Below, piece after piece: positions 14,171 to 14,215 of a DNA stretch of 64,000 nucleotides. Position numbers and translations under genes: made by a program. Position 1 is the first letter of the stretch, and each line of letters starts with the position of its first letter. The notes below the pieces were generated by a model. The model saw nothing but the letters and a program-made list of their open reading frames with translations, ran no database searches and was not told the DNA's origin. The stretch is from Vibrio tapetis subsp. tapetis (GTDB lineage: Bacteria; Pseudomonadota; Gammaproteobacteria; Enterobacterales; Vibrionaceae). The stretch is from assembly GCF_900233005.1 (NCBI RefSeq), contig NZ_LT960611.1, positions 1,116,001 through 1,180,000 of the forward strand, read 5' to 3'.

Positions 14171-14215
14171 TCAATAACTTAGCATAGGGCAGGGAATTAT
14201 TCGCTTTGCCAACAT
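14171..14215 (-). pseudogene. hisF: hisF 5' fragment at the island junction
   Basis: An ATG preceded by an AGGAGG ribosome binding site overlaps the end of hisA and encodes MLAKRIIPC, the invariant start of imidazole glycerol phosphate synthase HisF (which continues LDV). After codon nine the frame changes to PMLSY and stops at TGA. The shared sequence ends near 14188, so the attachment site lies in or next to the first nine codons. The remainder of hisF is not in the window. Whether the far island end restores a usable start for it cannot be seen. Confidence 0.85.

Follow-up and report, generated by a model that had tools for sequence, protein, structure and literature searches.

An island at the hisA/hisF overlap of Vibrio tapetis carries its own 5′ end of hisF

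The interrupted histidine operon and the two junctions

We analyzed a 64-kb stretch of DNA from Vibrio tapetis subsp. tapetis (hereafter the window; G000:C1:1116001-1180000 of a 5.73-Mb genome in three contigs), in which the histidine operon breaks off at the overlap of hisA and hisF and the gene of a tyrosine recombinase follows. We consider it about 90% probable that the break marks one end of a site-specific integrative element whose recombinase recognizes the hisA/hisF overlap. Only assembled sequence was used throughout. The features of the locus are as follows (window coordinates):

20080..20218, minus strand: His_leader (RF00514), the attenuator of the his operon (76.6 bits, gathering threshold 49)
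19141-20037, minus strand: hisG, by his gene family scoring
17838-19136, minus strand: hisD, by his gene family scoring
16771-17823, minus strand: hisC, by his gene family scoring
15683-16756, minus strand: hisB, by his gene family scoring
15063-15683, minus strand: hisH, by his gene family scoring
14197..14934, minus strand: hisA, complete, with its own stop codon at 14197-14199 (TIGR00007 above cut-off; PF00977)
14189..14215, minus strand: hisF stub MLAKRIIPC, truncated, with host DNA as far as the core and island DNA beyond (sequence reading)
14193..14202, minus strand: core GAATAATTCC, common to both junctions (junction comparison; stub codons 5-8)
14092..14120, minus strand: terminator-like hairpin, located in the island end past the stub and ahead of the integrase gene (scan match 14094-14109, the longer stem by reading)
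14013..14034, minus strand: ATGCTGATTCTTTGCTGATTTT, putative arm-type integrase site, with a second copy, differing by one mismatch, at the hisF end of the island
11750..13960, minus strand: 736-aa tyrosine recombinase (integrase), with weak PF13356 and PF00589 matches below cut-off and recognized by alignment with relatives
1..14202, no strand assigned: the part of the island that lies in the window; the remaining 23.6 kb precede the window, to G000:C1 about 1092427

An earlier sequence-only reading of the window had described a hisF start that follows hisA and then loses its frame, with an integrase gene about 250 bases further on and with hisF and hisI outside the window. The stub frame at 14215-14189 (minus strand) indeed reads MLAKRIIPC and continues with PMLSY and a stop, and neither hisF nor hisI was found in the 64 kb. 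The integrase open reading frame (ORF) is also present and adjoins hisA, beginning about 230 nt past the stub rather than 250.

A family search of the organism's own genome revealed a second strong His_biosynth gene on the same strand (C1:1091726-1092430). It belongs to an intact hisF (257 aa) that is followed by hisIE (G000:C1 1091037-1092442, minus strand, the strand of the stub), and both genes exceed the NCBIfam cut-offs for HisF and HisIE. The core occurs twice, at the stub and at the complete hisF, approximately 37.8 kb apart. The operon is thus split as the sequence-only reading had supposed, and the other junction lies where that reading had suggested looking for it, before the first position of the window. 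A search for a second copy of the stretch coding for MLAKRIIPC, fused to the rest of hisF, had likewise been suggested; at the complete hisF the 5′ end is present in a synonymously recoded form.

The hisA-side junction reads ATGTTGGCAAAGC-GAATAATTCC-CTGCCC and the hisF-side junction ATGCTAGCTAAGA-GAATAATTCC-TTGTTT. Agreement between them is limited to the ten bases of GAATAATTCC, which hold the hisA stop codon (GAA TAA in the hisA frame). The TGC that can be read as Cys9 of the stub is already island DNA (CTGCCC on the hisA side versus TTGTTT on the hisF side), which places the exchange at the hisA stop codon (14197-14199), inside codons 5-8. The island accordingly sits in the 5′ end of hisF, as had been proposed, but not after codon nine; that the exchange point coincides with the hisA stop codon in the gene overlap had escaped the sequence-only reading. 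By comparison with the other islands described below, the crossover can probably be narrowed to G[ACG]ATAA.

Such an exchange would take place on the hisA stop codon, which also lies in codons 6-7 of hisF. On one side hisA would retain its coding end and stop codon, and on the other the end of the element would supply a start codon and hisF codons 1-5, so that a full-length HisF is restored. A start codon and a hisF 5′ end recoded by synonymous codons are indeed present at the hisF-side end of the island. The sequence-only reading had left a choice between a histidine auxotroph and expression from the far junction with a start supplied by the island; the second option agrees with what was found, and auxotrophy through gene loss was rejected because hisF is intact and has its own start. 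A complete hisF without a repeated core would have spoken against integration; here the core is repeated and the complete hisF has a recoded 5′ end.

The same arrangement in other genomes

To find relatives, we searched with the window integrase alone, which matched one of 329 family genomes at E<=1e-20 and, in a protein search, two further proteins of about 60% identity. A three-row profile matched G000 (this genome), G241, G607 and G434 among 394 order genomes, and a six-row profile matched G000, G241, G120 and G229 among 227 genus genomes. None of the five new carriers was part of the profile that first detected it (the first profile for G241, G607 and G434, the second for G120 and G229). 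In all five the integrase gene directly follows hisA, a truncated hisF stub and the core lie at the same place, and a complete hisF is found elsewhere. This hisF is on the contig and strand of the integrase in G241, G120 and G229, giving islands of about 36.5, 11.2 and 44.6 kb, respectively. The insertion in the 5′ coding end of hisF, with stub and junctions, was thus seen in six of six genomes, and joining the host flanks in silico gave intact hisA and hisF readings in every case.

The arrangement without an island is the usual one. We searched 61 genus genomes for hisA, of which 59 matched, this genome included, leaving 58 others for comparison. In 55 of these (29 of 29 in one set and 26 of 29 in another) hisF directly follows hisA. 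It should be noted that one genome counted among the 26, G230 (L139), has a gap of about 40-50 nt between hisA and hisF instead of an overlap.

The possibility that the hisA junction is a misjoin in the assembly, which the sequence-only reading had itself raised, draws on the fact that all of the evidence is assembled sequence. It has a negligible probability in our view, since the two ends of the element, 37.8 kb apart, have matching core and end repeats and since five further genomes show the same arrangement.

The integrases themselves form a separate group. A search with the G120 integrase yielded 31 proteins at E<=1e-20, whose named sources include V. atlanticus, V. crassostreae, V. diabolicus, V. 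parahaemolyticus, V. lentus and Tolumonas; the G120 protein is identical to a Vibrio atlanticus database entry. In a quick LG+G4 tree of 44 rows, which left out P0004 (identical to G120) and P0031 (a piece of the G434 integrase), the six hisA-linked integrases were scattered through one clade of 37 rows (SH-aLRT 100), and the seven outgroup integrases, none of them at hisA, lay outside it. The inner branching order is unsure owing to long branches (G607 and the window group), and among the 31 database proteins in the tree the genomic site is established only for near-copies of known cases. Searches for the integrase in genome_contigs, viral_contigs and phages found no relatives, and neither did a plasmid search with P0002; in plasmids, P0007 matched 10 records at 23-25% identity. 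An N-terminal extension of about 110 residues sets the window integrase and its two relatives of about 60% identity apart from the other clade members.

These proteins resemble P4/CP4-type integrases in several respects. PF13356 (Arm-DNA-bind_3) is above cut-off in four relatives (G229, G120, G241 and G607) and PF00589 (Phage_integrase) in G229 only; the catalytic R...R-H...Y residues (R442, R585, H608 and Y621 in the window protein) are invariant in 37 alignment rows; and repeats flank the core. The matches of the integrase profile to arm and core domains of solved structures were weak, the best being the arm domain of a CP4-like integrase (3jtz, E 8e-4), followed by 3ju0 (0.02) and 2kiw (0.06). 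A structure model of the window integrase (mean pLDDT 75, pTM 0.45) was not used as evidence. The differences from P4/CP4-type integrases are the separate clade, a KRLVFH-type stretch, and Gly or Ala in place of the first His of the catalytic set (HxxR), three residues before the second Arg, where such integrases usually have His; the clade therefore departs from the canonical R-H-R-H-Y set of tyrosine recombinases. CP4-like islands usually target tRNA genes.

An ordinary integrase of broad or other specificity might have come to lie at hisA by chance or by local hitch-hiking. The protein does belong to a very large class (phrog_1 and PF13356 matches), and weak matches occur elsewhere: at E<=1e-15, ten of the 394 order genomes matched, comprising the four known ones and six weak ones, and at E<=1e-10, 15 of 369 class genomes matched, comprising G000 and 14 weak ones. 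However, none of the weak matches in these 6 order and 14 class genomes has hisA in its flanks of about 1.5 kb, whereas all five new members of the clade lie at hisA with stub and core at the same place. In a sample of the family of G607, one of 211 genomes matched, namely G607 itself. We therefore regard chance placement as very improbable and favor a clade of integrases with the hisA/hisF overlap as its target.

Each of the six islands has a repeat of its own close to either end: on the hisF side it precedes the core by about 100 nt, and on the hisA side, where G120, G241, G229 and G607 have two copies, it follows the core by about 130-190 nt. The repeat is TGCTGATT in G000, TGATGCAAATGTGATGCAAAA in G120 and G229, TGTTGAAAA in G241 and TGTAGCCTAT in G607, and is weaker in G434. 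Combined with the arm-binding domain of the integrase, such a layout is as expected for arm-type sites, which the integrase would bind. A hairpin scan of the hisA-side end found one hairpin, against 0.4 +/- 0.7 in shuffles.

The rebuilt 5′ end of hisF and its expression

Over hisF codons 2-5, comparison of the island and host copies in the six genomes gave 11 nucleotide differences (four in G000, three in G120, one in G229, three in G434 and none in G607 and G241), all of which are synonymous for hisF. By exact enumeration, the probability of an all-synonymous outcome is 0.0024 for G000, 0.013 for G120, 0.28 for G229 and 0.015 for G434. In addition, the island copy carries a stop in the hisA frame in four of the six islands, which suggests that the hisF reading alone is maintained. 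The start codon supplied by the island is ATG in four islands and GTG in G229.

Alternatively, the 5′ end in the island could be a homology arm derived from the attachment site, captured from former hosts and serving for pairing rather than for coding. Identity of the island and host copies over 23 nt in G607 and 19 nt in G241 would suit such an arm. The copies of G000, G120 and G434, on the other hand, show 3-4 differences from the host, all synonymous, immediately beyond the core, and a copy captured from a host would still be open in the hisA frame, in contrast with the stops seen in four of six. This alternative appears unlikely, and a 5′ end kept for coding is preferred.

As regards control, the His leader remains with hisG to hisA, and hisF-hisIE no longer lies directly downstream of it; no His leader was found at the six hisF-side loci searched. 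The genes hisGDCBHA would remain under the leader, and hisF-hisIE, now behind island DNA, would probably be transcribed from the island. By analogy, an island promoter for hisF is likely, but unproven. G241, G120 and G229 share the site ATGAAA-17-TATAGT, placed 219, 185 and 192 nt ahead of hisF codon 1, respectively, within a block conserved among the three; promoter-like counts were near the shuffle level, except in G607 (3 versus 0.9). A short ORF overlaps the hisF start in five of six islands, with a chance per island of 0.09-0.39 by single-base shuffling, although its criteria were chosen post hoc and G000 and G120 have sequence in common at that place. In the G229 island, a match to RF00029 (group II intron) is located about 540 nt before hisF (L088:887-963, plus strand).

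Several observations weigh against a site-specific element that rebuilds hisF. In G000, the 350 nt upstream of hisF showed no promoter-like site, and the promoter scan gave none on the hisF strand. The start codon is unrestored in G241, which has neither ATG nor GTG at codon 1 and shows an open frame with TTG codons, so that a TTG start or an N-terminal extension would have to serve. The product of the exact probabilities above is 1.4e-7 if the islands are independent, a rough figure because they may not be fully so. The integrase gene of G434 is in two pieces, and in G607 and G434 hisF and the integrase are on different contigs, the island ends being joined by inference. Finally, three of the 58 relatives (G105, G227 and G119; L136, L138 and L137) have hisA without the hisF overlap, and neither hisF nor this integrase was found within about 8 kb downstream, the rest of these genomes not having been searched for hisF; their hisF-hisIE has moved or been lost, which indicates that hisF can leave hisA by other routes.

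The first of these observations also bears on whether the insertion has inactivated hisF or its expression, leaving a silent remnant and a histidine auxotroph. Besides the lack of a consensus promoter in G000, such a reading could appeal to the severing of hisF-hisIE from the promoter and leader of the his operon. Against it, the hisF frame is open throughout, begins with a start codon and is scored as hisF, island codons 2-5 are altered only synonymously, and hisF is uninterrupted in all six carriers. Auxotrophy is improbable on these grounds, and with a functional rebuilt hisF the strain would be expected to grow without histidine.

Mobility, known elements and meaning

The element is probably mobilizable, that is, an integrative and mobilizable element (IME). 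The islands have an integrase at one end and two attachment sites, as an IME does, and relaxase domains above the Pfam cut-off in five islands point the same way (PF03432 in G000, G241, G607 and G229, and PF01076 in G120; the contig of G434 ends too early). Excision and transfer would be expected from this equipment. Beyond the integrase and his genes, blastp among the four assembled islands revealed a relaxase homologue common to G000, G241 and G229 and a helicase-like protein common to G000 and G241, with a weak match of G229 to G241.

GInt islands have several tyrosine recombinases at one end (an operon of three integrases and a small protein); the G000 island proteins in the Pfam scan, by contrast, include one tyrosine recombinase and one serine resolvase, and several have no Pfam match. 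The cargo of the G000 island also includes homologues of both exonuclease VII subunits (window 8217-10119, minus strand; large, TIGR00237 above cut-off; small, 71 aa, PF02609 above cut-off) and an IS21-type istA/istB pair (window 3123-5411, minus strand). A CBS-domain protein (window 5828-6754, minus strand) has a weak match, far below cut-off, to the anti-phage family NF053863. Two large UvrD-type, DNA-helicase-IV-like proteins of the island (L022:9129-12005, plus strand, and L022:4014-7022, minus strand) are below the NCBIfam cut-off and have GajB-type PADLOC matches, and a umuDC-like pair (L021:6132-7858, plus strand) adjoins the hisF junction and points away from hisF.

Rebuilding of the 5′ end of a target gene is known from elements at prfC and dusA. 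SXT, an integrative and conjugative element (ICE) at prfC, is self-transmissible; the islands described here have another target, and relaxases were found in them. IMEVchUSA3 integrates in the 5′ end of dusA and supplies a new 5′ coding sequence, and lacZ fusions have shown its new promoter (PMC8409611). Our islands likewise target the 5′ end of a housekeeping gene and bring new 5′ coding sequence. In the dusA elements, however, the N-terminus is altered (61% identity over 35 residues; PMC8409611), whereas here LAKR (LSKR in G607) is kept by synonymous codons. The target also differs from dusA, being a two-gene overlap within an operon, and the core holds the stop codon of the upstream gene. 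PAI-HS-hisF of E. coli HS is alike in its hisF name, but its entry gives hisI as the site, together with LPS and capsule genes, and this table row describes no integration in the 5′ end of hisF (PMC7545054). A virulence list in PMC12824646 includes hisF2.

No report of integration at the hisA/hisF overlap was found in full-text literature searches, which left out supplementary integration-site tables and most subscription journals, so that the novelty of this target is provisional; the target had rightly been called unusual in the sequence-only reading. The general class is known, and what appears new is the target, the stop codon in a gene overlap as the exchange point and the evidence that a spare 5′ end is kept for coding.

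A broader history can be offered only tentatively. An old integrase lineage may have specialized on a dual-coding overlap within an operon, with the hisA stop codon as exchange point. Each element would carry a prosthetic hisF start, consisting of a promoter, often a short leader ORF that overlaps the hisF start and imitates the translational coupling of hisA and hisF, and synonymous codons no longer bound by the hisA frame. Such islands would free hisF-hisIE of attenuator control and part hisF from hisH, its partner; the host could make histidine only if it kept the island or lost it by precise excision.

With these islands, a core amino-acid operon joins the targets of 5′-end-rebuilding elements, and the exchange point offers a way into a tightly packed operon in which neither of the overlapping genes is broken. 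The islands are predicted to rewire the control of one half of the two-protein enzyme HisH-HisF, and they may hold their host through its reliance on an island end for histidine synthesis. A simple search suffices to detect the junction and would reveal more islands of this kind and their cargo.
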